Shown: piece after piece, positions 477-47,514 of the stretch | Position numbering within the stretch: the first letter of the stretch is position 1 | How the letters are laid out: each line of letters opens with the position of its first letter | Origin: Planctomycetaceae bacterium | GTDB lineage: Bacteria; Planctomycetota; Planctomycetia; Pirellulales; Pirellulaceae | NCBI GenBank assembly: GCA_002862205.1 | Contig: PKCN01000267.1 | Coordinates: 1 to 64,000, forward strand | Length of the DNA: 64,000 nt | Reading direction: 5' to 3' | Translations under genes and position numbers: made by a program | The notes under the pieces: generated by a model | Databases searched by the model: none | What the model saw: only the letters and a program-made list of their open reading frames with translations | What the model was told of the DNA's origin: nothing

Positions 477-2685
477 TCAGGCGTTGAATGACTGTCTCAC
501 GTAAACGAGTAGCCTCCGCTTGCGCAAATCCTTCATCATCGTGATCAATCAGCCAGTCCAGGTCCCGAATTGCCGCTGCATCTCGTCTTGTCATCATTCG
601 AATCTGGGATCGCATCCTTCTCGCAATGATTGCATCTGGTTGAATAGCGACTGAAGCTTCACAGTACCGGTTGATCCCTTCAGCATCCTGTTGATTGCCA
701 GCGACACCAATCAGATTACCCAATACCCGATTCAGGATTTCGATCGGATCCTGTGAGCGCAAGTCAGCAGCAGTGATGGAGCGATTGCTCCGATTTGTAA
801 CCATATTGGCAGCCTCGTCCATGGTTAGAACTTTACCGCGTTCAAAAACATCGATCAGTTTCTGATCTTTGGCATCAATTACCTGCCGCACGATGAAATG
901 ACCTGGAAGACCCACACCTTCAACTTCAATCCCTATTCTGCGTCCTAATTCCATGTAAAGAATTGAAAGTGTGATGGGCAATCCTTCGCGATCATCGATT
1001 ACACGGTTGAGGTGACTGTTCGCGGGATGATAATACTCAGTACTTCCACCATGAAAGCCATTTTCCTGAAACAGATAGGTATGTAGAGCATCACGCTTAG
1101 TATCTGCGTCATCGGTCCCCTTAATTTTTTCGCTGATTTCCTTTCCCATTTCATCGACTCTGGCCACATACGCATCCACATCGATGTCTGGGTTATCAAG
1201 TTTGGCAATCAACAGTGCTCCCTGCAGCAGCATGTTGTCAGGATCGTTGCGGGCCAACTGGGCAAGTTCTCTCAGGATTGGGGCGATGGTTACATCGGCA
1301 GCAAGGCGGCGCAATTCTGCGGCCTGTTTTTCGAGGCTTGCGACTCTTTGTTTGATCTTTAAATTGGATGCTTCGTCAGTTTCACCAAGATCCATGATGT
1401 CTGTCGGGGTCAGTTCACGAATTCTTGATGGGTGTGAAAAAATGTCACCGATCAATGCCTCTGCCTGCTTTGTCATTGGAGGAACGGCAAGATCAGCACC
1501 GATTTCGAATCGTTTGAAATCAGGTTTGGTGTCTCGGAATTTCACGAGTCCAGATTTCCCCGAGGTCAGTTGTGTATCGCTGGATTCGATCACCAAGTGA
1601 CCATTGACGAAGCACTGCAGTTTGCCAGATTCGATTCTGACGCGTAGTCGATTCCACTCACCAGGCAGATAGTATTTGCTTCGAACTTCTTCGAGGACTT
1701 CCCAAGAATAAACGGATGGACCTTTGAAACAGGTCAGCCTGAGTTGCCCATTGCTGGGGTAAAAACCGTAATGCCGATTTTCGCCATCCGAATGAAACGC
1801 GATGCCCGCTGCACCTGATTCTTGATCCAAGCGAACGCGCACTGCGACCTCGAATGTTGGTTCAGGTACCTCTGATTTGGAGAGACAGAGTGTACGGCCA
1901 CCAAATCCTGACCCGGTACCACGTGCCATGATCATTCCGCCACGTTGGTTCCAGGTGGCGTTGAAAAGGGGCAGCCATTTCTTTTCGTTCACGCGGCCCA
2001 GATTAATCCATCGTTCATACAGCACCGGATTCGATTTTTCACGCAGCGGATCCAGTTGACTGATGGGGATCGCAAATCCCAGATTGTCATCGATCGCGGA
2101 TTTCATGTTGATGATCCCGATCACTTTACCCTCGCTGTCGACCAGTGGGCCCCCGCTATTGCCGGGTTGGGTTGGCATTGCCAATTGAATCATCTCTCTG
2201 CCTTCGATCTCCTGAATTGCAGATACAATCCCCGTCACAACACTGTCACGCATGCCAAGCGGATTTCCAAAGGCAAGAACCCGCGATCCCTTCCCTGGAA
2301 GTGAGTCCGTTGCCAGTTCAAGCGATGGGATTTTGTCTTCGCCAACGTCCACACGCAGCAATGCAAGGTCACTGGTGCGGTCTGATGATTCGACTGCCAG
2401 CACTGGCAGGACGCGGCCTGAAGATAGTTCCACCGTGAACGGTCTGCCTTCTGTTATCACGTGGAAGTTGGTAGCTATCAGGCCGTGAGCGTCAATCACG
2501 AAACCCGTGCCGATCCCCATCTGTTGTCCGTCTCGACCGTTGACACGGATTGTGGCGACCGACGGGTTCACTGATTGGATCAGTTTTTTGAGAACTTGCG
2601 GCTTTACCAAGTTGTTGGGTTCATCAGCAACAGTTGGAAATGCGACAAGACTCAGTACTAATGCAATCGGGAAGAAATGTTGCAT
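466..2685 (-). CDS. Secreted trypsin-like serine protease fused to a LamG/DUF1080-like domain and a SirB1-type transglutaminase-like domain
   Basis: The 739-residue protein begins with a signal peptide (about 1-20, cut near VADEP). Residues 35-215 form a DegP/HtrA-type protease with the full triad: His75 in ATNFHVI, Asp106 in TSDLALL and Ser177 in QPGNSGGP. No PDZ domain follows. Instead residues 225-400 look like a concanavalin-type beta sandwich of the DUF1080/LamG kind (WNRLRVRIESGKLQCFVNG). A charged helical linker comes next. Residues 520-640 then match the SirB1 / Transglut_core2 pattern (HPANSHLNRVIDDREGLPITLS, GLPGHFIV). The C-terminus, which includes a tetratricopeptide-like stretch, follows SirB1 practice. 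The protease probably acts in the periplasm. The ATG start fits the signal peptide. The protease part is certain, the sandwich likely, and the SirB1 part likely. Confidence 0.88.
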   Translation of the reverse strand: MQHFFPIALVLSLVAFPTVADEPNNLVKPQVLKKLIQSVNPSVATIRVNGRDGQQMGIGTGFVIDAHGLIATNFHVITEGRPFTVELSSGRVLPVLAVESSDRTSDLALLRVDVGEDKIPSLELATDSLPGKGSRVLAFGNPLGMRDSVVTGIVSAIQEIEGREMIQLAMPTQPGNSGGPLVDSEGKVIGIINMKSAIDDNLGFAIPISQLDPLREKSNPVLYERWINLGRVNEKKWLPLFNATWNQRGGMIMARGTGSGFGGRTLCLSKSEVPEPTFEVAVRVRLDQESGAAGIAFHSDGENRHYGFYPSNGQLRLTCFKGPSVYSWEVLEEVRSKYYLPGEWNRLRVRIESGKLQCFVNGHLVIESSDTQLTSGKSGLVKFRDTKPDFKRFEIGADLAVPPMTKQAEALIGDIFSHPSRIRELTPTDIMDLGETDEASNLKIKQRVASLEKQAAELRRLAADVTIAPILRELAQLARNDPDNMLLQGALLIAKLDNPDIDVDAYVARVDEMGKEISEKIKGTDDADTKRDALHTYLFQENGFHGGSTEYYHPANSHLNRVIDDREGLPITLSILYMELGRRIGIEVEGVGLPGHFIVRQVIDAKDQKLIDVFERGKVLTMDEAANMVTNRSNRSITAADLRSQDPIEILNRVLGNLIGVAGNQQDAEGINRYCEASVAIQPDAIIARRMRSQIRMMTRRDAAAIRDLDWLIDHDDEGFAQAEATRLRETVIQRLSDK

Positions 2686-2945
2686 TTTGTTTCCTCGAGT
2701 GGTCTGCCGAAATGCGGAGGTATGTCTGTTTTTATCACTTGATCATAGTCCCAATGCATCCTTGGTTCTGACCCAGTACATTGGAAGTTGTGGTGTTGAC
2801 CAGGTCAGTGAACGAAATGGTTGCAGAACACACCGCGTTCATTGCATGATTTATGTTTGTTCGGGTGACGCGATGGCAAGATTGCCAAGGCACGATTCCC
2901 GGAGTACGTATTATACCGTTTTGTTTTTTAGGATTGGTGGTAGCC

Positions 2946-4424
2946 ATGGTTCGTTTTTCCCTGATCGCAGCCTCGTTGGCATTTTTATTGGTTTGGGGCA
3001 ATGATGCCCATGCAGCTGAAGTGAAACAACCCAACTTGGTTTTTGTGCTTGTTGACGATCTCGGTTATATGGACGTTGGAGCGAATAATCCGGCAACTTT
3101 TTATGAAACGCCGAACATTGACAGACTGGCGAATTCAGGGATGCGGTTTACCAGTGGCTATGCAGCCAATCCCGTGTGTTCGCCGACAAGATACAGCATC
3201 ATGACCGGGAAATATCCGAGTCGTGTCGATGCGACCAATTTCTTTGCGGGGAATCGCGGGGGACGTTTCTTGCCTGCACTTCTGAACGATCGTATGCCTT
3301 TGAATGAATGGACACTGGCAGAGGCATTGAAAGCATCGGGCTATGCAACTTTCTTTGCGGGGAAATGGCATCTTGGACCGACGGAAGAGTATTGGCCTGA
3401 ACATCAGGGATTCGATGTGAATGCGGGAGGGCATCGGGCCGGGGGGCCGTCCAAGGCCGGTAAGTACTTCTCACCTTATGCCAATCCAAGACTGCAGGAC
3501 GGCCCCCAAGGCGAACATCTGACTGCACGACTCGCTGATGAAACGGTGGGATTCATTCGGGACCACAAAGAACAGCCGTTTCTGGCCTACCTCTCGTTTT
3601 ATTCAGTTCACACGCCGCTGATGGCGCCGCGTGAACTGGTTGCCAAGTATCAAGACAAAGCCAAGCGTCTGGGTTTGTCGGAGTCCGAAGTGTTTGATGA
3701 TGAAGAACAGGTGTGGCCCAATGCTCGCAATCGTAAGGTTCGTACCTTGCAGACACACCCCACTTATGCAGCGATGGTTGAGTCCATGGACACCGCTGTG
3801 GGCAAAGTGTTGGCAAGTTTGGACGAGTTGGGATTAGCTGAGAACACGATTGTATGTTTAACGAGTGATAACGGTGGTCTTTCTACCTCGGAAGGATCTC
3901 CGACAAGTAACTTGCCTTTGCGTGGTGGCAAAGGCTGGTTGTATGAAGGAGGTATCAGAGAAGCCTTCATGATCCGGGCTCCACGTGTCACCAAACCCGG
4001 GACCATTTGTGACGTGCCCGTGATGAGTATTGACTTTTATCCAACGCTTCTTGAGTTGTGTGGGGTGCCGTCGAACAATCGGAAAGAAATTGATGGTGAG
4101 AGCCTCGTGCCCCTGCTTTCTGGTGCTAAGCAAACAAAACGCAAGTCACTCTTTTGGCACTATCCCCATTACAGTAATCAGGGTGGTTTCCCGGGAGGCG
4201 CCGTTCGGTCCGGGGAGTGGAAGTTGGTTGAGCGTTACGAGGATGGGCGGCACCACTTGTATCATTTGGGAGAGGACATTGGTGAAAGGAATGATGTCGC
4301 TGCTCAACATCCTGAACTTGTGCAGCGGATGACTTCGGAACTTCATGCGTGGTACGAGGAGGTTGATGCCAAGTTTTTGCGAGCCAAGCCCGATGGTCCA
4401 CAGCCATGGATGCCCTCAGAGTGA
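2946..4424 (+). CDS. Secreted arylsulfatase-family sulfatase
   Basis: This is a type I formylglycine-dependent sulfatase, which hydrolyses sulfate esters, probably of sulfated polysaccharides. The metal-binding VDDLG (about 37-41) and the modification motif CSPTR are both present; Cys78 would become formylglycine. GKWHLG and later SDNGG add further metal and active-site residues. I chose the ATG at 2946 over the longer ORF start at 2853. It leads directly into a signal peptide (MVRFSLIAASLAFLLVWG, cut near AHA), whereas the extra 31 residues do not look like a signal. The 492-residue length is normal for the family. The gene stands alone, divergent from the protease fusion. The substrate cannot be told from sequence. 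The matching sulfatase-maturing enzyme is not in the window. Confidence 0.93.
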   Translation: MVRFSLIAASLAFLLVWGNDAHAAEVKQPNLVFVLVDDLGYMDVGANNPATFYETPNIDRLANSGMRFTSGYAANPVCSPTRYSIMTGKYPSRVDATNFFAGNRGGRFLPALLNDRMPLNEWTLAEALKASGYATFFAGKWHLGPTEEYWPEHQGFDVNAGGHRAGGPSKAGKYFSPYANPRLQDGPQGEHLTARLADETVGFIRDHKEQPFLAYLSFYSVHTPLMAPRELVAKYQDKAKRLGLSESEVFDDEEQVWPNARNRKVRTLQTHPTYAAMVESMDTAVGKVLASLDELGLAENTIVCLTSDNGGLSTSEGSPTSNLPLRGGKGWLYEGGIREAFMIRAPRVTKPGTICDVPVMSIDFYPTLLELCGVPSNNRKEIDGESLVPLLSGAKQTKRKSLFWHYPHYSNQGGFPGGAVRSGEWKLVERYEDGRHHLYHLGEDIGERNDVAAQHPELVQRMTSELHAWYEEVDAKFLRAKPDGPQPWMPSE

Positions 4425-4844
4425 TGTTCGACCGACCGCTGTCGTGTGATTGGCTCGCTTGCTGGCTGAGTTGGGTTGCTGCTTGGACATCGAACGGGGC
4501 GGGAAGTATTTGCATGGCTGACAGGGTTGGATTGATTCGGGAAAGGGAGTCGGATCCAAGTAGTTGTTTAGGGTTTATTTCTAATCGAGCTTTGTTGGTT
4601 CGCCCATTTCAATCCAACAGCAAGGCTGTTTGACCAAAGGTGTTCAGGCTGCGTAACCGGTAAAGTCAGTGCTGAGTTTGTGGCTTGTAACGTTTTCTCG
4701 GGATCTACTGTCCCGTTTCGTTGTTCGGTTGTTCCAGTTGTGTCGTGTGAACGGCCGATAACGAACATGGCGCACCGTTCAAACGGCCCGGTTATCCAGA
4801 TTGTCTGGTATAGCGGAAAGCGTGGTAATTCAAGGCTTCATTCC
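4425..4844. other. Intergenic stretch between the sulfatase and the TolC-family gene
   Basis: About 420 bases hold no convincing gene. One ORF (4406-4633) overlaps the sulfatase end and has no recognisable content. The ORF track runs the downstream gene back to 4680, but those first 55 residues look untranslated. A short hairpin (AACAGC-AAG-GCTGTT, near 4616-4630) is visible without a following T-run. Promoters for the outer membrane protein presumably lie here, but I cannot point to one. Confidence 0.5.
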
Positions 4845-7154
4845 ATGCGACTTCGCATTCCGAAAACGTTCTACAGTCGTCATTACGATAGCAAGGTGAT
4901 TCACGAGGGTGACTCCACGTTACATCAAGTGACGTGTGCGGCAGCACCGCCAGTGGTGTTTGCCTTATTTGCCACTTTGGTGTTTTCAGCAATCACGGGG
5001 TGTTCTCTTGCACGGTTCATTCCAGAGGGCAAGCACGACACCAAAAAGTCGTACCACGCCAACCAGGGCTTGAGCATTCAATATCCGGAAGTGAAGCAGT
5101 GTGAGACGCCGACTTTATTGAAGGCACAACAGACACAGTTTCCTTTGACAATGCAGGATCCCGCCGACCTGCCATCTGTTGAGATGTCTTTGCAGGATGC
5201 GATTAATTTGGCGGTCACTTCCAGTCCAGTTCTGCGTACGGTGGGTGCATCTCCTGATGCGCGGCTCGCAGTTCAGGGGGTGGCGACGGTTTATGATCCG
5301 GCTATCACTGCATCCTCACCGCTGCTGGGTACGGAAGCAGCTCTGTCCGCCTTTGATGCCCAATATGCTCAACAGCTTTTTTGGTCGTCAGTTGATCGTC
5401 CTAACAATGTTGCACCCGATGGGATCACCTCTGCTTTCACTCCAAGTGTTTCTTTGGCGAAGAATGCAGCTTTCAATGCGGAATTGTCAAAGACGACGGC
5501 ATCTGGCGGCACTTATGCGTTACGGCATATTGTGAATTATTCGCGGACCAATCAACCATTCCGGGCGTTTGCCAGCGCATTTGATGGTTGGGTGGAAGCT
5601 GAATGGCGGCAACCTTTGGCGCAGGGCGCTGGCTCAACTTACAACCGTATCGCAGGTCCGAGTACGGTTCCTGGCCAATACAATGGAGTCCTGATTGCCA
5701 GAGTCAACGAGGATCTTTCGTTGGTGGATTTTGAGAGTTCTGTGATCCAACTGGTGGCTGACGTGGAGCAGAGTTATTGGGATTTGGTAACTGCCTATCG
5801 CAGATTGGACACTGCAGTGCGTGGCCGAGAATTGGCACGTCGCACATGGGAGTATAATAAGAAGCGTCTGGAGGTTGGCGCTGGCCGTTTGGACGATGAA
5901 GCGCAGGCCCGGTCCCAATATTACAACTTTGAAGCCCAGGTTCAGGCAGCTTTGGCCGGCGCTAATGGGCTTTATAAGATCGAGCAGGATCTGCGATACA
6001 TGGTTGGCATGGTTGCAACCGATGGCCGCTTGTTGCGTCCCACAACCGCACCGATTGATGTTCGGGTCACGTTTGATTGGGAGAGCGCTCTCGCTCAGGC
6101 GTTGCAACGGCGAGCAGAGATTCGCAGGCAGAAGTTCCAAGTCAAGCGTAGAGATATGGAACTGGTTGCCGCTAGGCTCAACTACAAGCCGCGAATTGAT
6201 CTTGTGAGCCAATACCGATGGTACGGTTTGGGGAACCATTTGATTGGCAATAAAGATAGTGCACTCGACAACATGTATGGCGAGATCACTGGTGGCAATT
6301 ATCAGGAATGGCAGACGGGGGTCGACTTGCGATTTCCGGTTGGGCTTCGAGCAGCAGGACTGGCGATCGCCAATGCAAAGCTCAATGTTAAACGCGAACG
6401 TGCCGTCCTTGCCGAAACGGAATTTCTGATCAGTCACAATCTGTCAGATGCTGCTCGACAGATTACGATTACCCATGAATTGTTGGAAACCAATTACGAC
6501 CGTTTGCTGGCTGACTTGAACCAGGTAGATGTTCTTGACGCACGTTACCGAATCGGGTCCGACAATATCCGTGACCTGCTGCTTGCACAGCGGCAGCTCG
6601 TCAATAGTGCAACAGAATTTTACAGTTCGTTGTCACAATACAATCTGGCTATCCGCGACTTCCATCGTGAGAAAGGATCGCTACTGGCCTACAACAATGT
6701 CCAGCTTGCGGAAGGGCCATGGGCCAAGGGCGCAAAGTATGACGCCTACCGCACTGGGCGTTTTTTGCGACCAAGTCTTTGGCCTGGAGCCAAGAATATT
6801 GCTCTGCCGGTGACCAACGGGCCTTTTGATCCCTCGGCTGTGCAAAACTCTTCTGCTCCTGATGTTCCCCCGTCAGAAGCGATGCCAACGCAAGTTCCAG
6901 CAGAGGTCGATTCCGAAACTCAGTCTGAAAAGTTGCCAACCGGTGATCAGGAGTCCCAGTCGCATCAGCCACCGACACCAAAAGTGCTTGAGGACGACAA
7001 TAATGCTGTTTCACCCTCCTCGTCCGAGTCGCATTCTGACGAGTCGAAAGTAATTGGAGTGGGGAATGCGAAGCCTGCTGGAGAGACTCCATTGTCAGAG
7101 TTGCCTGTGCCAGTGGGTGGAAACAGAATTCAGACTGTCAAATCAGTTGATTAA
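4845..7154 (+). CDS. TolC-family outer membrane channel lipoprotein
   Basis: The protein is a TolC/OMF-type outer membrane channel, the exit duct of efflux or type I secretion systems. From the ATG at 4845 it has a charged start, then a hydrophobic stretch ending in a lipobox (FSAITGC), so it is probably lipid-anchored. The body, to about residue 620, has the long alternating helices of the family, with repeated segments such as SYWDLVTAYRRLDTAVRGRELA and YNLAIRDFHREKG. A Pro/Ser/Glu-rich tail of about 130 residues follows and is probably disordered. No membrane-fusion protein or inner membrane pump is adjacent, so the partner pump must be encoded elsewhere. The start is uncertain: the ORF opens at 4680, and GTG codons nearer the signal are also possible. 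The gene converges with trmB. Confidence 0.85.
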   Translation: MRLRIPKTFYSRHYDSKVIHEGDSTLHQVTCAAAPPVVFALFATLVFSAITGCSLARFIPEGKHDTKKSYHANQGLSIQYPEVKQCETPTLLKAQQTQFPLTMQDPADLPSVEMSLQDAINLAVTSSPVLRTVGASPDARLAVQGVATVYDPAITASSPLLGTEAALSAFDAQYAQQLFWSSVDRPNNVAPDGITSAFTPSVSLAKNAAFNAELSKTTASGGTYALRHIVNYSRTNQPFRAFASAFDGWVEAEWRQPLAQGAGSTYNRIAGPSTVPGQYNGVLIARVNEDLSLVDFESSVIQLVADVEQSYWDLVTAYRRLDTAVRGRELARRTWEYNKKRLEVGAGRLDDEAQARSQYYNFEAQVQAALAGANGLYKIEQDLRYMVGMVATDGRLLRPTTAPIDVRVTFDWESALAQALQRRAEIRRQKFQVKRRDMELVAARLNYKPRIDLVSQYRWYGLGNHLIGNKDSALDNMYGEITGGNYQEWQTGVDLRFPVGLRAAGLAIANAKLNVKRERAVLAETEFLISHNLSDAARQITITHELLETNYDRLLADLNQVDVLDARYRIGSDNIRDLLLAQRQLVNSATEFYSSLSQYNLAIRDFHREKGSLLAYNNVQLAEGPWAKGAKYDAYRTGRFLRPSLWPGAKNIALPVTNGPFDPSAVQNSSAPDVPPSEAMPTQVPAEVDSETQSEKLPTGDQESQSHQPPTPKVLEDDNNAVSPSSSESHSDESKVIGVGNAKPAGETPLSELPVPVGGNRIQTVKSVD

Positions 7155-7887: not shown

Positions 7888-8019
7888 CAGTGGATGATCG
7901 TCGAACGAGTTCAGGCGAGTTCGGATTGTCCAAGCAAGGACATCGTAACCGGCGGAGATTTCTCTACAATGACGTGTGCGGTTTGAATCAACTCCCGAAA
8001 AACGATGTGCAGTGCGACA

Positions 8020-9945
8020 ATGGCGAACGCAAAAGCCAATTTTAATGGATTGCAGATTGCTGCTCTGGAGAGCAGGCGTGCTGATGATATGGACCGCTTG
8101 ATCTCCAAGATGGGCGGTATTGCCCACGTCAGTCCCTCCATGCGGGAGGTGCCGATTGAGCCCAACCGTGGTGCGATCGATTTCGCGTACCGGCTGATGA
8201 CTGGGCAGGTGAGTGTTGTGATTCTGATGACAGGTGTGGGATTTCGTTATTTATTGCGATCAGTTGAGAAACATGTCGATCGGCAGCGATTTCTTGATTC
8301 GCTTTCGGACGTTGTCACGATTTGCCGGGGGCCCAAGCCTGCAGCGGCGTTGAGAGAGGTCGGTATTAAGGCCACTTATCGTGTGCCGGAGCCGAATACA
8401 TGGCGGGAACTGCTACGGACCATCGATTCCGAGGTCGCTATTGCCAATCAAGTCGTGGGTCTGCAGGAATATGGAGTTACCAATGCATCTTTGATTGCAG
8501 GTTTGGAAGCACGGGGGGCAACCGTGGAGCCAGTCCAGGTTTATGGCTGGGAATTTCCCCAAGACACGACGCCATTGGAAGAAAATATCAAGTCCCTGGC
8601 TGCGGGGCAGAGAGATATGTTGCTGCTGACCAGTGCTCATCAGGTCGTAAATATGCTGAGAATGGCAGAGCAACTCAATCTGGTAGAGTCGTTGCGACAG
8701 GGTTTGCATGGGACCGTAATTGCTTCGATCGGACCGACCACCACGCAAATGCTGGAGGAGTGCGATATTCATGTCGATATGGAACCCAGCCATCCTAAGA
8801 TGGGGCATCTGGTGACCGAAGCAGCACAGCGAGGAGTGAGTTTGGTGGAATCTAAAAAACGTGGTTTTGCGGCATCACCGCCGATTGCCAATCTTGAGCA
8901 TCCTTCCAACGCCAGCCTGTTCATGAGGGCATGCCGCGGAGAACCGACTGAAAGGACCCCCGTCTGGTTGATGCGACAAGCTGGGCGATACATGGCTGAG
9001 TACCGGGAGGTGAGGGCCAAGCAGAGTTTTCTTGAACTCTGCGGACAGCCCAAACTGTGCAGCGAGGTAATGTGCACCGCTGTTGATCGCTTGGGAGTCG
9101 ATGCAGCGATCATCTTCTCTGATCTTCTGCCCATTCTCGTTCCGATGGGATTCGACCTCGAGTTCGCGAAAGGTGATGGCCCCGTGATCCATAATCCTGC
9201 ACGCGATCTGGCTGATGTGAAACGCGTTCGAGGTTTGAACGCACCGCAGGAACTGGACTTTGTCTACGAAACGGTTCGACAAACCCGAGCTGATATTCCA
9301 GAGTCAATTCCTGTCATAGGATTTGCTGGTTCCCCGTTCACGCTCGCCAGTTACGCCATCGAGGGTGGAGGGAGTAAACAGTACGTCAACACAAAAAAAC
9401 TCATGCGGAGCAAATGTGGTGGCTGGAGTCTGCTCATGGAGAAATTGTCCGAGGCAATCACGGTTTACCTCAATCATCAGATCGCAGCGGGGGCACAGTG
9501 CGTGCAGTTGTTTGACAGTTGGGCCGGGTGCCTATCCCCCAATGATTACACGACCTTCGTGCTGCCATGGATGAAACAGATCATCGCCGGTATCACTCCG
9601 GGCGTCCCTGTGATCAATTTCGCAACCGGCAATCCTGAACTGCTGCCACTATTGAGGGGTGACCGCAGGACTGTCGTTGGTGTTGATTGGCGAATTCCTC
9701 TCGATGTCGCTTGGCAGCGGATTGGGCATGATTGTTCGGTGCAGGGAAATCTCGATCCCGCTGTTCTGCTTGCCGAACCGGATGTCATTCGTAACGCGGT
9801 GGATGAACTGCTGCGTTCGGTTGATGGCCGTCCCGGCCACATCTTCAACTTGGGGCATGGGGTTTTTAAGGAGACACCCGTGGAACACGCCATCGCATTG
9901 GTAGAGGCAGTCAAAGATCTATCGCAGCGGCCGACCGAAGATTAG
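8020..9945 (+). CDS. hemE: Fused uroporphyrinogen-III synthase (HemD) and uroporphyrinogen decarboxylase (HemE)
   Basis: One 641-residue reading frame joins two successive haem-pathway enzymes. Residues 1 to about 270 resemble HemD, which closes hydroxymethylbilane to uroporphyrinogen III. They have the two-lobed Rossmann-like fold with motifs such as ALESRRADDM, LMTGVGFRYLL, LLTSAHQV and IGPTTTQML. Residues about 290-640 are a full-length HemE, which decarboxylates uroporphyrinogen III to coproporphyrinogen III. It carries the signature WLMRQAGRYMAEYRE, IIFSDLLPI, GFAGSPFTLASY and FNLGHGVF. The linker is short. ATG 8005 is an alternative start five codons earlier. No other haem genes flank it, so the fusion is likely the only local source of both activities. 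Confidence 0.93.
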   Translation: MANAKANFNGLQIAALESRRADDMDRLISKMGGIAHVSPSMREVPIEPNRGAIDFAYRLMTGQVSVVILMTGVGFRYLLRSVEKHVDRQRFLDSLSDVVTICRGPKPAAALREVGIKATYRVPEPNTWRELLRTIDSEVAIANQVVGLQEYGVTNASLIAGLEARGATVEPVQVYGWEFPQDTTPLEENIKSLAAGQRDMLLLTSAHQVVNMLRMAEQLNLVESLRQGLHGTVIASIGPTTTQMLEECDIHVDMEPSHPKMGHLVTEAAQRGVSLVESKKRGFAASPPIANLEHPSNASLFMRACRGEPTERTPVWLMRQAGRYMAEYREVRAKQSFLELCGQPKLCSEVMCTAVDRLGVDAAIIFSDLLPILVPMGFDLEFAKGDGPVIHNPARDLADVKRVRGLNAPQELDFVYETVRQTRADIPESIPVIGFAGSPFTLASYAIEGGGSKQYVNTKKLMRSKCGGWSLLMEKLSEAITVYLNHQIAAGAQCVQLFDSWAGCLSPNDYTTFVLPWMKQIIAGITPGVPVINFATGNPELLPLLRGDRRTVVGVDWRIPLDVAWQRIGHDCSVQGNLDPAVLLAEPDVIRNAVDELLRSVDGRPGHIFNLGHGVFKETPVEHAIALVEAVKDLSQRPTED

Positions 9946-40019: not shown

Positions 40020-40454
40020 ATGCACTACCGCAATCACATTCGATCGCACCGATCATCCCACTCAGCCCGAAGCGGCTTCACCTTGCTCGAGTTGCTTCTG
40101 GTTCTCGCAATCCTTATCGTCATCATCGGGATTGGCGTTACCAACTTCGGCGGTGTTCAGGCTGGAGCGAACCGCGACGCCACCGAAATCACTTTAAACA
40201 GCCTCAAAGACAACATAAAAATGTACAAAATCCGTATGAACGGACTCCCTGAAAATCTCGAAATGCTCAGAGATGGGCCCACGGATGCGAACAAGAAGGC
40301 CAAATGGGTTTCTGCAATCGTTGAAGAGATTCCCACAGATTCGTGGGAAAACGACCTAGAATACAATGTCAGCGGTGGGAGTTTCGAATTGCGGAGCTCG
40401 GGGCTTGATCAACAAATGAATACTGCTGACGACATTATCGTCGAAGGAAACTAG
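40020..40454 (+). CDS. gspG: Type II secretion major pseudopilin GspG-like
   Basis: GspG is the main subunit of the pseudopilus that drives substrates through the type II secretin. From ATG 40020 the protein is 144 residues. The prepilin leader ends SARSG, with cleavage before FTLLELLLVLAILIVIIGIG; Glu is at position +5. The mature part has the GspG pattern, with LNSLKDNIKMYKIRMNGLPENLEML and a C-terminal DPWENDLEY-like PTDSWENDLEYNV. The longer ORF start at 39861 is not used because a class III leader should be short. It is the first gene of the seven-gene operon, 86 bases before gspH. Confidence 0.92.
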   Translation: MHYRNHIRSHRSSHSARSGFTLLELLLVLAILIVIIGIGVTNFGGVQAGANRDATEITLNSLKDNIKMYKIRMNGLPENLEMLRDGPTDANKKAKWVSAIVEEIPTDSWENDLEYNVSGGSFELRSSGLDQQMNTADDIIVEGN

Positions 40455-40540
40455 CCCGAGGTTTTCCACGTGCACTGCGGGCAGGATTGCTCCAGACGGT
40501 GGTTGACCGAAGGCCCGGTTTTTCAAGTTCAGTCAGCCCC

Positions 40541-41161
40541 ATGCGGGAATTTTCATTGTCACGTCGATCTGCATTCACGCTACTCGAGCTCTTGCTGGTG
40601 ATCGCCATTCTTGCCGCTTTGGCTTGTATGACGATGCCAAAGTGGGGCATGCTGTTGAATGATCGTCGGCTTATGCGGGCTGGAGATCAGGTCCGCAGCA
40701 GTGTTGCCAGATTGCGCGTCGAAGCGATGCGTTCGGGCAGGGTTATCATGCTCGAAGGGATGCTCGAAGGAGACAGTTTACGGGCCAAACCTTTCTATTC
40801 TGCGACGGACGCGACCGAGGCCATCGATCAGACCGGTACAGGGTCAGAATTGCTCTCCGGGGCTGATCAGGTGTCGGCGGTTGTGGTCGAGCAAGACGAA
40901 TCGGCCATCGAGACAATCGAACTGCCCGATGAGATCACGGTTACCGGGGTCAGCGTCGTGTCTGCGGCTCGCGGCATGGAAATTGAAGAACTCACCGTGT
41001 CGGATCAAGGCGAAGGCTGGAGTCGTCCAGTACTCTTCTACCCCGATGGCTCGACCAGCACCGCTTTGATCAGCATGGCACACCCAACAATGGGACGCAT
41101 TGTGGTCAAGATTCGGGGAATCACAGGTGATGCGACTGTCAGCGAGGTGCTTGCACCATGA
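40541..41161 (+). CDS. gspH: Type II secretion minor pseudopilin GspH-like
   Basis: From ATG 40541 the protein has 206 residues. The leader is MREFSLSRRSA, followed by FTLLELLLVIAILAALACM. The residue before the cleavage point is Ala rather than the usual Gly, and Glu is at +5. The mature protein begins PKWGMLLNDRRLMRAGDQVRSSVARLRVEAMRSGR, which matches GspH. GspH is a minor pseudopilin, and I infer that it helps cap or build the pseudopilus. Its stop overlaps the ATG of the next gene (ATGA). Confidence 0.87.
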   Translation: MREFSLSRRSAFTLLELLLVIAILAALACMTMPKWGMLLNDRRLMRAGDQVRSSVARLRVEAMRSGRVIMLEGMLEGDSLRAKPFYSATDATEAIDQTGTGSELLSGADQVSAVVVEQDESAIETIELPDEITVTGVSVVSAARGMEIEELTVSDQGEGWSRPVLFYPDGSTSTALISMAHPTMGRIVVKIRGITGDATVSEVLAP

Positions 41162-41676
41162 CCTGTTGCGCGATTGAGAATCAAAGATCGAAACCAGATC
41201 GTGTTGATCATCGGATGCGACGTGGATTTTCGTTATTGGAAATCCTTCTCTCGTTGGCAATCCTTGGTGGTTCTTTGGCGATTTTGAGTCGCATTGTTGA
41301 TACTGGAATCACAGCTGCCAGAGAAGCTCGGGATTTGTCGATTGCACGCATGATCTGCCAAGCGAAGCTCTCCGAGGTATTGCTCAACAGTACGGCTGGA
41401 TTCACACCACAGGCTCAACCGCTAACACCAGTGGATTCTTTCGACTCCCAGTCCACTACTCCATTTGAGTTTTCGGTTGAAGTCCAGCCGGGGCAACTTG
41501 GAGGCATTCTGCTGATCCGCGTTGTTGTTGAAGCACAGAACCCTGACGGCGGTGTTCCACTTGCTCGGTACTCTCTTGTTCGCTGGATGATTGATCCCGC
41601 CTTGGGACTGGAGGAGTTGGAAGAGGAAGAAGAAGCTGCCCGAGAGGAAGCCGCCGGCGTGGAGGGCTCAGCATGA
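41158..41676 (+). CDS. gspI: Type II secretion minor pseudopilin GspI-like
   Basis: The 172-residue protein has a leader ending RRG, then FSLLEILLSLAILGGSLAIL with Glu at +5. It continues with ARDLSIARMICQAKLSEVL, which matches the GspI pattern. The gene uses ATG 41158, which overlaps the gspH stop. A later ATG at 41215 would give a shorter leader, closer to the usual length, and is a fair alternative. The C-terminal segment is rich in Glu (LEELEEEEEAAREEAA), which is not usual for GspI and is probably disordered. Confidence 0.85.
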   Translation: MTCCAIENQRSKPDRVDHRMRRGFSLLEILLSLAILGGSLAILSRIVDTGITAAREARDLSIARMICQAKLSEVLLNSTAGFTPQAQPLTPVDSFDSQSTTPFEFSVEVQPGQLGGILLIRVVVEAQNPDGGVPLARYSLVRWMIDPALGLEELEEEEEAAREEAAGVEGSA

Positions 41677-42671
41677 TGAGCATCAAGCGACAGGCGATGA
41701 GGGCATTTACGCTGCTGGAAGTATTGTTGACTCTGGCGATGTCGGTCGTGTTAATGGGACTGATAGGGACAGCATTTCAGTTCTACGCGGTCGACATGAA
41801 CGTGCGGAATATGGATATCCGGCAGACCCAGTTGGCGGCTGCTGTGATGCAAATGATCGAGGATGATTTGCGTGCCACGCTACACAGTGAACCGGCCGAT
41901 ATGTCGGGGCTCGAGGAACTTCTTTCTTCCAGCCTGGGGGGCGAGGAAGAAGGTGGCCAACGTAGTAGCGGGGGAGAGAGCGAAGAAGATCTTTCAGCCG
42001 CTGGGATCAGTATGGCAGAGGAGCCGATTGAAGAAATCGAAACAACGAATCTTGATCTCACCAGTGGTGTTGCTGTTTTGCAGACGCCAGGACTGATTGG
42101 CAATCAGTATCAAATCCAGCTCGACTTGAGTCGGCTGCCGCGATTGGAAGAGTACGTTCAGATGATGGACGCGAACACAGCAACGTTACAAGACGTGCCA
42201 AGTGATTTAAAGACGGTCGCGTATTACGTGCAGTCCGAAGATTCTACTGCTGGCGTGATGGATTCTCTCGCGGAACTTGATCCAGACGCGACCGATTTGA
42301 TGTCAGGTGGTCTGGTGCGTAGGTCGCTTGATCGCGCGGCGACCGTCGAAGCTGCGACCATGGGGAATATCAGTACCCTCAATCAGACGGGTGACCTGCT
42401 GGCACCCGAAGTCAAGTCAATCGAGTTTTCGTACTGGGATGGGCTGATGTGGCAATTGGAATGGAGCAGTGATGAATTTGGTGAGCTGCCACTCGCTGTG
42501 CAGGTGCGGATTTACATGATTGATCCCGCTTTGGCAGCGACTGAGGACTCCAATACGCTTTCCTCGTTGGGACCGGACTCCATGCGTGCGTTCTCGCACA
42601 TTGTTCGGTTACCTATGGCTGTGGCGATAGAGACCGAGGAAGAAGAGGATTTGTCGGAGGCCGGACTATGA
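41673..42671 (+). CDS. gspJ: Type II secretion minor pseudopilin GspJ-like
   Basis: The 332-residue protein starts MMSIKRQAMRA followed by FTLLEVLLTLAMSVVLMGLI, with Glu at +5 and Ala at -1. QLAAAVMQMIEDDLRATL is typical of GspJ. Residues about 85-110 are a Ser/Glu/Gly insertion (SSLGGEEEGGQRSSGGES), and the protein is about 130 residues longer than common GspJ. The reading frame overlaps gspI by 4 bases and gspK by 4 bases. Confidence 0.85.
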   Translation: MMSIKRQAMRAFTLLEVLLTLAMSVVLMGLIGTAFQFYAVDMNVRNMDIRQTQLAAAVMQMIEDDLRATLHSEPADMSGLEELLSSSLGGEEEGGQRSSGGESEEDLSAAGISMAEEPIEEIETTNLDLTSGVAVLQTPGLIGNQYQIQLDLSRLPRLEEYVQMMDANTATLQDVPSDLKTVAYYVQSEDSTAGVMDSLAELDPDATDLMSGGLVRRSLDRAATVEAATMGNISTLNQTGDLLAPEVKSIEFSYWDGLMWQLEWSSDEFGELPLAVQVRIYMIDPALAATEDSNTLSSLGPDSMRAFSHIVRLPMAVAIETEEEEDLSEAGL

Positions 42672-44380
42672 AACAGTCAGTCAAATTGCCACATCGGGGA
42701 TTTTTTCTGGTGCTCGTGCTGATTGTCATCGCGATTGCGACGATGGCGGTTTACTCCTTCACGGATCTGATGCTGGCTTACGATGACTCCGCCTATTTAA
42801 CCGGTGACATCGTGCAAACCAGAGTTAATGTTGAGTCGGGTGCCGAAACAGTCCGGTTGTTGCTCTCAGAGCCGCCTGAAATGCGGTTTGATTATGGTGG
42901 CGTTTATAACAATCCCCAGATGTTTCAGGCTGTGTCTGTTTCTCTGGGAGATGATAATTCAACACCCTCGAATTTCTCAATTCTTGCACCTGGATTGAAC
43001 CAAGACGGCAGATTGGCTGGACTGCGATTCGGGCTGCAAAATGAATCGGCGAGGTTGAATCTCAATGCGCTGACTGTGCTGGAAAATAGTCCAGCCGGCA
43101 TGCTAGCCTCTGCCCTCACTACCACCGATGAATCGGAAGCTTCAAGCGAAGAGGAAACCAGCGATAATATCGCGGTTTCCCTTCTGCTGACTCTGCCAGG
43201 CATGACTGAAGATATTGCTGACGCGATTCTTGATTGGTTGGATGAGGATGAAGAGGTGCGGGCATTCGGTGCGGAAGCAGAGTACTACTCGACACTGCCC
43301 ACCCCATATGTGCCCAAGAATGGCCCAGTTTTAAGCGTTGAAGAATTGTTGCTCGTGCGGGGGGTCACTCCCTCTCTCTTGTTTGGTGCCGATGCAAACC
43401 GCAACGGAGTGCTGGACGCTGACGAGCAGCAGCGTTTCGGAGTAACGGTTGAGACCGCCGGTTCACTCGGGTGGGCGGCATACCTCACTGTGCATGGTGC
43501 TGAAGCAAGCAAACAACGCGATGGCAGTTTTCGGGTCAATGTAAATCAGGATGACTTGGAACTACTGTACGAGGAATTGTCCGAAGCCATGGAGAACGAC
43601 GACTACGCAACGTTTATCGCAGCGTATCGGATTGCCGGGCAGTCAAATTCAACAATGGCTCTTTTGAGTGGAGATAGCGGAGGTGCGCAACAGGCGGAGG
43701 TCGAAGGCCGTTGGACAGCCGACTTGATGAGTGAATTTGATCTCAGTGGTGGCGGTGGGACTTCGTTGACACAGGTTTTAGATCTGGTTGGAGCGACAGT
43801 AACGGTTGGTAACGGTGATAACGCCCGCTCCTATGCTTCTCCCTTCGCCGAAGACCTGATTTCAATGGGCTTGTACATGCCGATTTTAATGGACACTTTG
43901 ACCACACAAGAGGTCGAAGTTATGCCAGGTCGGATTAATATAAACGAGTGTCCCGCAGAACTCTTGTATGGAATTCCTCTGCTTCCAGAGGAAGCGATCG
44001 AAGGCATCATTGAGACGCGAGATGTTAACTCTGACGATCCCAATCGTCAGTTCGAAACGTGGCCGCTCGTTGAGGGTTTGGTAACGCTCGATGAAATGCG
44101 GCAACTGACACCGCTGATTACCTGTGGTGGAGATATTTACCGATTACAGGTTGTTGGATATTTCGAGCAAAGTGGAGTTTCGAGTCGAGCTGAGGTGATC
44201 ATCGATGCGACGACCGTGAACCCCAAAATAGTGTTGTGGCGGGACTTGAGTCACTTGGGTAGAGGGTTTGATCTTTCTGTTCTGGGATCTAGGTCGTTCA
44301 CCGGCCTTGAGGGTGAAAGTGGAGCGGTTGACAGTGCAGCGGTTGACAGTGGAACGGTTGACAGCGCAGCGGGAAATTGA
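42668..44380 (+). CDS. gspK: Type II secretion minor pseudopilin GspK-like
   Basis: The 570-residue protein has the short leader MKQSVKLPHRG and then FFLVLVLIVIAIATMAVYSF. There is no Glu at +5, as in GspK. GspK is the largest minor pseudopilin and sits at the tip with GspI and GspJ. Helix-hairpin-helix-like segments are present, e.g. LLLTLPGMTEDIADAILDWLDEDE and INECPAELLYGIPLLPEEAIEGIIETRD, as in GspK. The length is well above that of enterobacterial GspK, with extra Ser/Glu stretches. The last residues are a threefold VDSAA-type repeat encoded by a 15-bp repeat. Confidence 0.88.
   Translation: MKQSVKLPHRGFFLVLVLIVIAIATMAVYSFTDLMLAYDDSAYLTGDIVQTRVNVESGAETVRLLLSEPPEMRFDYGGVYNNPQMFQAVSVSLGDDNSTPSNFSILAPGLNQDGRLAGLRFGLQNESARLNLNALTVLENSPAGMLASALTTTDESEASSEEETSDNIAVSLLLTLPGMTEDIADAILDWLDEDEEVRAFGAEAEYYSTLPTPYVPKNGPVLSVEELLLVRGVTPSLLFGADANRNGVLDADEQQRFGVTVETAGSLGWAAYLTVHGAEASKQRDGSFRVNVNQDDLELLYEELSEAMENDDYATFIAAYRIAGQSNSTMALLSGDSGGAQQAEVEGRWTADLMSEFDLSGGGGTSLTQVLDLVGATVTVGNGDNARSYASPFAEDLISMGLYMPILMDTLTTQEVEVMPGRININECPAELLYGIPLLPEEAIEGIIETRDVNSDDPNRQFETWPLVEGLVTLDEMRQLTPLITCGGDIYRLQVVGYFEQSGVSSRAEVIIDATTVNPKIVLWRDLSHLGRGFDLSVLGSRSFTGLEGESGAVDSAAVDSGTVDSAAGN
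44324..44368 (+). repeat. 15-bp in-frame tandem repeat, 3 copies, at the end of gspK
   Basis: GCGGTTGACAGTGCA, GCGGTTGACAGTGGA and ACGGTTGACAGCGCA follow each other and encode AVDSA-AVDSG-TVDSA. The array ends 9 bases before the last codon. The unit is a multiple of three, so it adds residues without shifting the frame. Confidence 0.85.
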
Positions 44381-44518
44381 GGAGCGGTGCTGGTCGACTT
44401 GCCCATTGCAGGAATGAGGGCAGGACGTAAGGTTGCTGTGGATTTGGTTGTAGGTAGGTTTTGTGTGTCACGAATAGCCAGTGCGAGATATCGACTTCAT
44501 GCATGAAGTGAGAAAAAA

Positions 44519-46339
44519 ATGGTAAGAAAATTAGCAATCGATTGGGATGAAAGTGAGTTGAGGTTGGTGGCTGCGCAATGCAGCGGCAGCAATGTCAAAG
44601 TCACTGATGCCCGGGTGATTCCGATTGAAGACAATGTTCTCGATACCCTCAAAGCCGCACTCGCCGGTAAGGGGATGGAAAATACGGAGACATTAGTCGC
44701 CATTGGACGGGGTCAGGCAGAATTGCGGGAATTGCAATTACCACCTGTGCCAGAAGATGAACTACCTGACATGGTCCGGTTTCAGGCAAGTAAGAGTTTT
44801 GCGACCGCTGGCGACAATGCGAATGTTGATTATCTCGTCACCAACCGAAGCGATGCGGGTGTCGAGATGATTGCAGCGGCGTTGGGTGAACAGGAGTTGG
44901 CCAGAATACGTGGCATATGCGAGTCAGGAAGCCTCGTTGCGAAACGGATTTCGATTCGACCTCTCTCGGCTGCTGCTCTTTACCTGCTGAAGCGGGAGCG
45001 ATCCAGCGGCAACGATACCGTGTTGATCGATCTGCTTTCTGAGGAAGCGGAAATTGTTGTTGCGCGAGATGGACGCGTTATCTTCGTTCGAACCGTTCGG
45101 ATGCCCTCTGCGGAAGCTGCACGTGGGCGAGCGTTAGCTGGTGAACTCAAACGCAGTCTGGTTGCGTGTGGATCCAGCGGGACTTTGGAGCGAGTCGTTC
45201 TGTGGGGTCAGGCAGCAGTGCACTCGCAGGATGTCGAGATGTTAGCGGAAGCTACTGACAGCAAAGTTGAGGTTTTAGACCCATTCTCGCTCGTCGAAGT
45301 GGACCGCAACACAAAAGGGAAGATGCCTGAGCATGTTGGGCGTCTGGCTCCCCTGGTTGGTCTTTTAGTTGCGGATGAAACAGGGGCTGATCGTCTGCTT
45401 GACTTCTTGAATCCGCGAAAGCGGGTGGAAGTTGTCGAAAGTCCGTATCGTAAATACCTGATCGCTTCGGTTCCCATTGCCGTGGCCGCCCTGGTGGGTT
45501 TCTTGATCTATCGGCAGCTTGGGGCTTTGGATCAGCAAATTGAGGTTTTGAAAACGACCAACAAGCAAAAAGAAAAAGATGTCAAAGCGGCTGATGTTAG
45601 CATCGCACGTACCGAGACAGTCGATAGGTATTTGGATAGTGATGTTAACTGGCTCAATGAGGTACGTCGGCTTGCAGCGAAAGCTCCCGAGTCGGACAAG
45701 TTGATTGTGCGAAGCCTTAACGCTGCTACTGATAACCGAAACGGTGGTGGTAGGATGACCGTCGATGTGGCTGTTACCGAGCCATCTGTCATCGGCGAAT
45801 TTGAGGCTGCTGTCCGTGGTGATTCCCGCAAAGTTGAAGGTGATGGTGCGAGGGATTTGGGCACGTCCAATCAATATCGCTGGAGCATCAAAGAGACGAT
45901 CAAGATCGCACCCGAGTACGTTCGTGAGCAGCGGTACACCGGGATGCGTGGAGTTGTTGAGGAGCCCGGCAGCGAGTTGGATCAACCTGAATCCACTTCG
46001 GAGAACGATCCGGTGAGCGAACGTGAGGCAGGAGGCTCGGAACAAGCGGTTGTCCGTTCCGAGACTGAACAATCCGAGGCTCTCGATGGCGAGAAAGCCG
46101 GATCGGCCCCGGATGTGGTTCCAGGACAAGAAAAAGACGCTGATCCCGGTAATGAGGGTGACGATGTACCTGGCGATGCAGATCCACCCGCAGTGGGGGA
46201 ATCTGGGAAATCAGAATCCGGTGATGATCCGGCGGAGGGTGCAGCCGGGGAAGAATCGGAAACCAGTCCCGAACGTGAAGCAGAAGCGAATTCGGATGAT
46301 GATGTTGTTGCTGAAATTCGAACAGAGGTGAAGTCATGA
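44519..46339 (+). CDS. GspL-like assembly protein: PilM-type ATPase fold plus PilN-like domain and acidic tail
   Basis: Residues 1 to about 300 have an actin-like PilM/GspL-cyto pattern, with MVRKLAIDWDESELRLVAA, LVAIGRGQAELRELQLPP, MVRFQASKSF and NDTVLIDLLSEEAEIVVARDG. A membrane span follows (about 308-330, YLIASVPIAVAALVGFLIYRQ). After it comes a PilN-like periplasmic stretch to about 470. The last 135 residues are acidic and repetitive (ESGDDPAEGAAGEESE), probably disordered. PilM plus PilN in one chain is the architecture of GspL. The gene lies 138 bases after gspK and overlaps the next gene by 4 bases. It would link the secretion ATPase to the inner membrane platform. Confidence 0.82.
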   Translation: MVRKLAIDWDESELRLVAAQCSGSNVKVTDARVIPIEDNVLDTLKAALAGKGMENTETLVAIGRGQAELRELQLPPVPEDELPDMVRFQASKSFATAGDNANVDYLVTNRSDAGVEMIAAALGEQELARIRGICESGSLVAKRISIRPLSAAALYLLKRERSSGNDTVLIDLLSEEAEIVVARDGRVIFVRTVRMPSAEAARGRALAGELKRSLVACGSSGTLERVVLWGQAAVHSQDVEMLAEATDSKVEVLDPFSLVEVDRNTKGKMPEHVGRLAPLVGLLVADETGADRLLDFLNPRKRVEVVESPYRKYLIASVPIAVAALVGFLIYRQLGALDQQIEVLKTTNKQKEKDVKAADVSIARTETVDRYLDSDVNWLNEVRRLAAKAPESDKLIVRSLNAATDNRNGGGRMTVDVAVTEPSVIGEFEAAVRGDSRKVEGDGARDLGTSNQYRWSIKETIKIAPEYVREQRYTGMRGVVEEPGSELDQPESTSENDPVSEREAGGSEQAVVRSETEQSEALDGEKAGSAPDVVPGQEKDADPGNEGDDVPGDADPPAVGESGKSESGDDPAEGAAGEESETSPEREAEANSDDDVVAEIRTEVKS

Positions 46340-47514
46340 ATGAGAGAGAAAAAAATCTCGTCAAGATCATCGGAGCGATACTTGTGATGTATCTGCTTTG
46401 GGCTGGATACGGGCGTTACCAGTCTGCTGTCTCGCAACGGACCAGACTGATTTCGCAGTTGACGAGCAGGCAAAAAGAGCTTTCCGAGAAGATTAACATG
46501 GGAGCAGTGGCTGACGGTACTTTTGGTGAGTACCGGGCGCGATCTCTACCAAGTAACGTTGAAGCTGCAGACAGCCAGTACAGAAAATGGCTGCTGGCAT
46601 TAGTTCACGGCAGGGAAATGGATAATGTTGACGTCAGCAAGGCGACTTCTCGAACAATCTCTGGGATCTATCAGAAATTTGATTTTGGAATCAAAGGCTC
46701 GATGGATTTGCCTGCACTGATAGGGATGATGCACGACTTTTATGCAAAGGATTACTTGCATCGGATTCGTGAGTTATCAATCAGCCCCCGCAAAGGTGGT
46801 TTCACGGTTTCAATGAAGGTGGATGCGATTGGTCTGGCAAACGCTCCCAATGACTTACCAGAACGTCCTGAACCGTCTTACCGGGTTGATGCAGATGCTC
46901 AGGCATACATCGATGCGATTATGAACCGCAATCTTTACGAGCCACCAAACCAGGCACCTCGTTACAGCGGTGGCCGATCCATTGAAGCGATCGTCGGTCG
47001 GGATTCACCGACCCCTTTGACCTTCAAAGATCCCGAAGGACATGACGTGAGATTCGAACTTGCAGAGGAACCCCCGGAGTTTGTTCGTCTCGATTCACGA
47101 AGCGGGACGTTGCGAGTCAAATCTGACGTTACGCAGGAATTTGAATTGCTGGTACGGGCGATCGACAGTGGTTATCCACAGCAGACGACAGAACAGACGA
47201 TTACTGTGCGAGTCGTCGATCCCCCGCCCCCCCCAGTCGCGCCGCCTGCCGAGCCATCGTTTGATGATGCTTCCCAGACTGTGCTGACAGCATTGTTGCA
47301 GGTGCGAGGCGACTGGACTGCTTGGATGCACGTGAGAACTCGTGACGAGACGTTGAAGCTGAAAATCGGTGATACGTTTGAAATCGGTACTCTCAAGGGC
47401 ACCATCTTTGATGTGACGCCTCGCTATGCGACGTTGGAAATCGATGGCAGACGCTTTGAATTGAGGCCGTCTGGTAATTTGGGAGTTGCAGCCAAACGCG
47501 CCGAGTTGGATTGA
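46336..47514 (+). CDS. GspM/PilO-like protein with cadherin-like and GspC/PilP-like segments
   Basis: The 392-residue protein has a membrane span at about 9-25 (IIGAILVMYLLWAGYG). It is followed by a PilO/GspM-like periplasmic region to about 180, with SQLTSRQKELSEKIN and MHDFYAKDYLHRIRELSISPR. Residues about 225-300 look like a cadherin-type segment (PTPLTFKDPEGHDVRFELAEE, LRVKSDVTQEFELLVRAID). A PPPPPVAPP linker then leads to about 75 residues (VRTRDETLKLKIGDTFEIG, IFDVTPRYATLEIDGRRFEL). These resemble the pilus-side PilP or GspC homology-region fold that contacts secretin. If so, one protein joins GspM and GspC functions. It is the last gene of the operon. Confidence 0.72.
   Translation: MNEREKNLVKIIGAILVMYLLWAGYGRYQSAVSQRTRLISQLTSRQKELSEKINMGAVADGTFGEYRARSLPSNVEAADSQYRKWLLALVHGREMDNVDVSKATSRTISGIYQKFDFGIKGSMDLPALIGMMHDFYAKDYLHRIRELSISPRKGGFTVSMKVDAIGLANAPNDLPERPEPSYRVDADAQAYIDAIMNRNLYEPPNQAPRYSGGRSIEAIVGRDSPTPLTFKDPEGHDVRFELAEEPPEFVRLDSRSGTLRVKSDVTQEFELLVRAIDSGYPQQTTEQTITVRVVDPPPPPVAPPAEPSFDDASQTVLTALLQVRGDWTAWMHVRTRDETLKLKIGDTFEIGTLKGTIFDVTPRYATLEIDGRRFELRPSGNLGVAAKRAELD

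Follow-up and report, generated by a model that had tools for sequence, protein, structure and literature searches.

A conserved GspM-GspC fusion protein predicted from the pseudopilin operon of a planctomycete type II secretion system

Can a single gene at the end of a pseudopilin operon supply two components of a type II secretion system (T2SS), GspM and GspC, as one chain? The question is raised by a stretch of 64,000 nucleotides (the window) from a Planctomycetaceae bacterium of the order Pirellulales (contig PKCN01000267.1, assembly GCA_002862205.1). At positions 40020-47514, gspG-H-I-J-K-L are followed by a gene for a protein of 392 residues, here called MC, and all open reading frames (ORFs) are intact. 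An earlier note on this DNA, made from the sequence alone, had read MC as a GspM-like part joined through a cadherin-like segment and a proline linker to a C-terminus resembling the secretin-contacting region of either GspC or PilP. The analysis described here indicates that the operon very probably encodes the pseudopilus and inner-membrane platform of a planctomycete-type T2SS, that its last gene is a gspM-gspC fusion, and that the rest of the machine is encoded elsewhere.

On its predicted structure and on profile comparisons, the C-terminal domain of MC is the homology region (HR) of GspC, not PilP. An AlphaFold2 model of the domain alone, for which the alignment was drawn from window and related-locus sequences only, contains seven strands and one helix, with a pLDDT of 67.5 (74-83 in the core); the published HR fold has two sheets with six strands in all, and PilP is its nearest homologue (PMC3169554). 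A Foldseek search against the PDB ranks the HR of PulC first (6hcg_e; probability 0.94, template modelling scores 0.53/0.65), so the predicted fold is not unlike that of GspC HR. The next T2SS fold is the HR of GspB (probability 0.66), and the other listed matches are at or below 0.33. None of the top 50 fold matches is PilP, nor does Pfam PilP match any of the 36 MC orthologues scored. Thus, of the two identities first proposed for the C-terminus, that of GspC stands and that of PilP does not.

The same result bears on what the operon serves. If it built a type IV pilus (T4P) or a pilus-like fibre and not a secretion machine, MC would be the equivalent of a PilO-PilP fusion. Such fusions are known (PMC3169554), planctomycetes have crateriform outer-membrane structures that touch the cell membrane and bear pili-like fibres (PMC5394234), and GspL resembles PilM (Pfam PilM 7e-5, NCBIfam pilM 8.7e-9). 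However, a pilus function is unlikely: besides the position of PilP in the fold search, the operon has the complete G, H, I, J, K set of a T2SS, with GspG and GspK families and prepilin motifs; GspL, also as in a T2SS, is a single chain of PilM+PilN type with one transmembrane segment predicted from hydropathy; and PilB/PilT/PilC and Tad-type loci exist separately in the genome. The gene order originally assigned, gspG-H-I-J-K and then a GspL-like protein, is borne out by the Pfam and NCBIfam matches of ORFs at these positions. The last 115 or so residues of GspL, read from the translation, form an acidic low-complexity tail, which is unusual for GspL.

Direct comparison of the C-terminal domain with single GspC sequences by hhalign is weak (P of 0.013 for E. 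coli and 0.0017 to 0.023 for planctomycete sequences), and an intermediate was therefore sought in the form of an unfused C gene. In other planctomycete classes, M stands alone (about 190 residues), and a separate gene encoding 210-235 residues lies between M and the secretin; its product carries an RN[IL]F motif, a proline linker, and an HR-like domain. The unfused clusters (L141-L145, L148) share with the fused ones the order E-F-G..K-L-M-C-D and homologous M and C, but in them M and C of these sizes are separate neighbours. The C part of MC aligns with the separate syntenic C genes at a probability of 95.4% (P 1.8e-8), and these in turn align with GspC at 92.2% (P 5.7e-7); one of them matches Pfam T2SSC at 1.3e-4. 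Against a four-sequence GspC profile, the domain itself gives a P of 2.2e-4, with a score of 29.2 compared to 24.0 for the best unrelated decoy (256 ORFs scored). A single-sequence phmmer search against the PDB returned mostly cadherins, and a sequence-profile search of the PDB with the C-terminal domain returned only repeat artefacts (Pizza designs), which were rejected.

The N-terminal part agrees with GspM in its place after gspL and in its secondary structure. Within MC, Pfam detects a weak cadherin match (residues 235-293, 6e-4) and a T2SSM match below threshold (residues 1-50, 0.13), and nothing else; among the 36 orthologues, T2SSM is matched in 8 (best 0.0012, below the cut-off) and He_PIG in 13 (best 1.3e-23). 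The N-terminal membrane anchor proper to GspC is absent, the single transmembrane helix belonging to the M part, and the protein ends just after the HR, with neither a PDZ domain nor a coiled-coil C-terminus.

Several points count against the identification of MC as GspM joined to GspC. The model of the C-terminal domain is of moderate quality only, and the E-value of its match to PulC HR, 0.57, is not significant by itself. Pfam T2SSC (PF11356) gives no direct match to the fused C part, either in the window protein or in its orthologues, and in Pfam the GspM assignment is likewise sub-threshold. The full-length AlphaFold2 model, built on a shallow alignment, has a pLDDT of 46 and is unusable beyond the secondary structure for which alone it was used. 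In addition, the secretin gene of this genome is cut by a contig end, and complete copies come from congeners and clusters.

The rank of GspB HR in the fold search raises the idea that the domain is an HR of GspB/OutB type, such that M would be fused to a secretin-anchoring scaffold and GspC would be lost; Pfam T2SSB also matches two orthologues weakly (0.033). Yet PulC HR outscores GspB HR, and GspC profiles match the separate gene that lies between M and D, as does Pfam T2SSC in one genome, so this assignment is quite improbable. It would be more surprising still to find the C part to be a small beta domain of other origin that has converged on the HR: the Foldseek E-value and the lack of a direct Pfam match would allow it, but the syntenic separate C gene shares the RN[IL]F motif, the proline linker, and the profile match, and the chance of such convergence appears very small.

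The identification of MC as a GspM-GspC fusion also fits its distribution. An MC profile matches 93 of 147 Pirellulales genomes, in 62 of 89 genera. In most of the 93, the C part (about residues 297-387) comes directly after the M part (1-205), and the proteins have roughly 295-350 residues; because this layout is so widely conserved, it is not due to chance. The fused connector from inner membrane to secretin that had been proposed is therefore upheld as a conserved fusion of M and GspC HR, whose connecting role is predicted. The immunoglobulin (Ig)/cadherin-like insert, on the other hand, is found in the family of the window and in a few more, is absent in most orthologues, and occurs twice in L066. 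Its distribution indicates that it is a lineage-specific addition; the cadherin-like segment is present as claimed, but is not a core part of the protein. In the sister order (family f21), where the neighbours are unchanged, MC usually has 560-670 residues, and M is separated from C by Ig-like repeats. Three further fusions are found in deeper lineages (L146, L147, and L155).

In trees of the ATPase, GspE, the systems of Planctomycetia group together with support (100/97 and 99/97) as one clade. The two trees, from the second of which the aberrant, very long-branched sequence of G432 was left out, concur that the fused systems are not monophyletic when G318 is counted (in the second, p-AU 0.029, with long branches); the fused state requires more than one change on the tree owing to this genome. 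Since PF11356 detects a separate GspC in just 3 of the 147 Pirellulales, most of them have no detectable candidate for C other than the fusion. Judged on these comparisons, the fusion is real and old. The coordinates of the operon and of the parts of MC are collected in Table 1; for gspG, a longer ORF with a GTG start is possible from 39861.

Table 1. Genes of the operon and predicted parts of the fusion protein MC (positions in the window)
Feature	Position	Strand	Evidence or remark
gspG, major pseudopilin	40020..40454	+	ATG start; Pfam T2SSG 1.5e-13; GFTLLE prepilin motif
gspH-like minor pseudopilin	40487..41161	+	N_methyl 3.5e-5; same-place orthologues in relatives
gspI-like minor pseudopilin	41158..41676	+	NCBIfam gspI 1.2e-5; Pfam N_methyl match
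gspJ-like minor pseudopilin	41673..42671	+	Pfam T2SSJ 0.0012
gspK	42668..44380	+	Pfam T2SSK_1st 5.8e-18; NCBIfam GspK 2.4e-18
gspL	44519..46339	+	PilM-like cytoplasmic part, one transmembrane segment (about 311-338), periplasmic part, acidic tail
GspM-GspC(HR) fusion protein MC, 392 residues	46336..47514	+	
Sole transmembrane helix, residues 7-26, common to M and C parts	46354..46413	+	Hydropathy
GspM-like part, residues 1-178: transmembrane helix, coiled coil, beta-beta-alpha-beta-beta	46336..46869	+	T2SSM matches in orthologues; standalone orthologues in other classes
RN[LI]F-type motif (RNLY here), residues 198-201, N-terminal to C part	46927..46938	+	Conserved in orthologue alignment and separate C genes
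Ig/cadherin-like insert, residues 209-295	46960..47220	+	Cadherin 6e-4; lineage-specific
Pro-rich linker, residues 296-307	47221..47256	+	
GspC HR-like domain, residues 309-386	47260..47493	+	Foldseek PulC HR; profile chain to GspC

Where, then, is the rest of the machine? In the remainder of the window, homology searches reveal no gene related to a secretin, an N domain, an ATPase, GspF, or GspC; the earlier note had said so of the immediate neighbourhood for all but the N domain. (A single ORF at 8005-9945 of the window fuses uroporphyrinogen-III synthase, HemD, to uroporphyrinogen decarboxylase, HemE.) In many relatives, a single cluster holds the system wholly or for the most part, in the order E-F-G-H-I-J-K-L-MC-D-lipoprotein, and the gene for a further component, the N protein discussed below, adjoins E in some relatives and is more distant in others. 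The window's genus and genera close to it carry the system in separate loci. The complete relative genome G122 has D-lipoprotein at 2.81 Mb, N-E-F at 3.48 Mb, and G..MC at 4.78 Mb, all parts intact. In the window's own genome, a search for the missing parts finds N-E-F on contig C97, which supplies the ATPase and GspF of this system (orthologous E and F share a cluster with MC in relatives). It also finds the secretin gene, cut off at the edge of contig C4 so that just its 5' part is present (about the first 185 residues, 85% identical to the N-terminus of a congener's D). Thus, a split system, as first suggested, exists in this genome and in G122, but is not general. A prepilin peptidase is present as well, with Peptidase_A24 at three loci.

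Given the unlinked components and the D that ends with its contig, the operon might be taken for a decaying remnant cut off from secretin and motor, but this can hardly be right, as the ORFs are all intact, MC is 76-83% identical across 6 related metagenome-assembled genomes, the identical three-way split recurs with intact parts in G122, and orthologous E is present in 16 of 16 family genomes tested. The nearest GTDB loci are those of Rhodopirellula/Rubripirellula genera, and the window thus stems from a planctomycete resembling these; in one congener (L096, G118 contig C79, 10016-11707), an in-frame TGA, which may be an assembly error, breaks the E gene.

A separate gspC elsewhere in the genome had been named as grounds for abandoning the fusion. 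One is present on contig C22 (Pfam T2SSC 3.3e-11), but it does not refute the fusion, because it is part of another T2SS, a canonical one (D-E-F-G-H-I-K-C-L-M), with its own secretin, ATPase, F, and pseudopilins. This system has a similar gene set and differs in its separate C, L, and M and in a D with the ordinary 3 N repeats. The genome also has a paralogous system, apparently spread over contigs C172 (D, lipoprotein, and a giant N), C350 (E, F, and G), and C312 (H to an MC paralogue). On C312 (L068, G000, 1094-6567), the second H-I-J-K-L-MC set ends in an MC paralogue of 295 residues, in which M and C are again joined and the Ig insert is missing. A further conserved secretin (about 1130-1160 residues), apparently solitary and lacking Pfam Secretin_N repeats, is found at L028 (G000 C64, 17-3511) and L094 (2993-6373).

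The last question is what the HR of MC would contact. In known T2SS, HR binds the N0 domain (PMC3169554, PMC6882859), and the secretin's N0 had been suggested as the partner. However, a profile seeded exclusively from true secretins detects N0 in none of 16 Pirellulales D proteins (search to E 10), which carry 7-9 Secretin_N copies. Instead it detects N0 in the N protein (6.5e-9 to 1.7e-4; a widened profile gives 3e-26 in another genus), which has a signal-peptide-like N-terminus, 4-5 Secretin_N repeats, and no secretin domain. D proteins of the sister order do contain N0, and those scored from the unfused clusters of other classes have N0 and 3 Secretin_N. Alternatively, N0 may be present in the Pirellulales D but diverged beyond recognition. 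Since HR binds N0 in known T2SS and N0 here sits on N, the likeliest docking site for the HR of MC is N rather than D; the secretin itself is probably not the partner. An order-wide search with the N0-containing part of N as query finds the fusion and an N-type protein together in 92 of the 147 genomes, the fusion only in 1, N only in 2, and neither in 52 (Fisher 4e-36, relatedness ignored).

N-type proteins occur as several paralogues per genome (in G000 on C97, C172, and C176, and in most Pirellulales), often 3, with up to 14 matches. The giant N (L024, G000 C172, 1-6915) exceeds 2300 residues, continues on C350, and has N0 and about 24 Secretin_N-like repeats, with no secretin domain. At L167 (G257 C86, 96-12737), an ORF of 4213 residues that matches the D secretin family, with N0 and about 42 Secretin_N, lies directly after an M-C fusion gene in one planctomycete.

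From these parts, the working of the machine can be proposed. The fused protein would be anchored by the single helix of M, and the coiled coil and ferredoxin-like domain of M would pair with GspL to form the platform over the GspE/GspF motor. The C part, with its proline linker, HR, and, where present, Ig spacer, would reach through the periplasm and dock on N0, tying the platform to the outer-membrane channel. Because the secretin has no detectable N0, the relevant N0 would be that of N, which may stack beneath the N domains of D, with the pseudopilus pushing substrate through the lengthened channel; the Ig insert and the extra N domains might serve as spacers for a wide periplasm. The machine would presumably secrete folded proteins. 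We infer from the sequences a modular bridge composed of M-C, then N, then the elongated secretin.

It is conceivable, though somewhat doubtful, that the Planctomycetia rebuilt their bridge between the membranes from modules: HR became fused to M at an obligate 1:1, the Pirellulales D lost its N0, and N (N0 plus 4 to about 24 Secretin_N) became an adapter stack to the lengthened secretin, an arrangement that would suit a wide and variable periplasm and in which the N paralogues are possibly exchangeable adapters.

The planctomycete system shares with the Klebsiella Pul T2SS (PMC6882859, PDB 6HCG) the pseudopilins G-K, the ATPase E, F, L, a predicted M, the C-HR fold, and the secretin family. 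In Pul, however, PulC and PulM are separate chains, measured by cryo-EM at about 2:1 (PMC6882859), and PulD carries the N0 on which HR docks, whereas in the Pirellulales N0 is detected on an extra protein. The nearest precedent for the fusion itself, as cited in PMC3169554, is a PilO-PilP fusion of P. putida (Q88CU9), which follows the same logic in joining PilO, the M homologue, to PilP, the HR homologue. That protein belongs to T4P, whereas MC belongs to a G-K pseudopilus system and has a GspC-type HR, a single transmembrane helix, a proline linker, and Ig inserts in some families. Non-secretin proteins with an N0-type fold have been described in type IV secretion, namely VirB7 of Xanthomonadaceae (PMC3093366) and DotD (PMC2951367); these belong to different machines, and there N0, unlike that of N, is not trailed by a Secretin_N stack. 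Searches of open-access papers found neither a GspM-GspC fusion nor an N0-free secretin paired with a separate N0-bearing protein described in planctomycetes.

The stoichiometry and arrangement of GspC and GspM are a live question, crystal work having argued for 1:1 from PilO-PilP fusions (PMC3169554) against the value of about 2:1 from Pul. Because M and C form one chain in a natural protein that is conserved in two planctomycete orders, their ratio per chain is there fixed at 1:1, and the question could readily be tested on it. T2SS detection models that treat gspC as mandatory (PMC6668835) may overlook such systems, as so few Pirellulales have a gspC that Pfam recognises. If true, an N0-free secretin with N0 on a separate stack protein would revise current views of the contact between platform and channel. 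The planctomycete periplasm varies and is in some cases greatly enlarged (PMC5394234); a longer modular bridge fits such a periplasm, although nothing in these results links the two. As pure speculation, the machine could be what lies behind the crateriform structures, by which the cell membrane of planctomycetes is pinned to the outer membrane.

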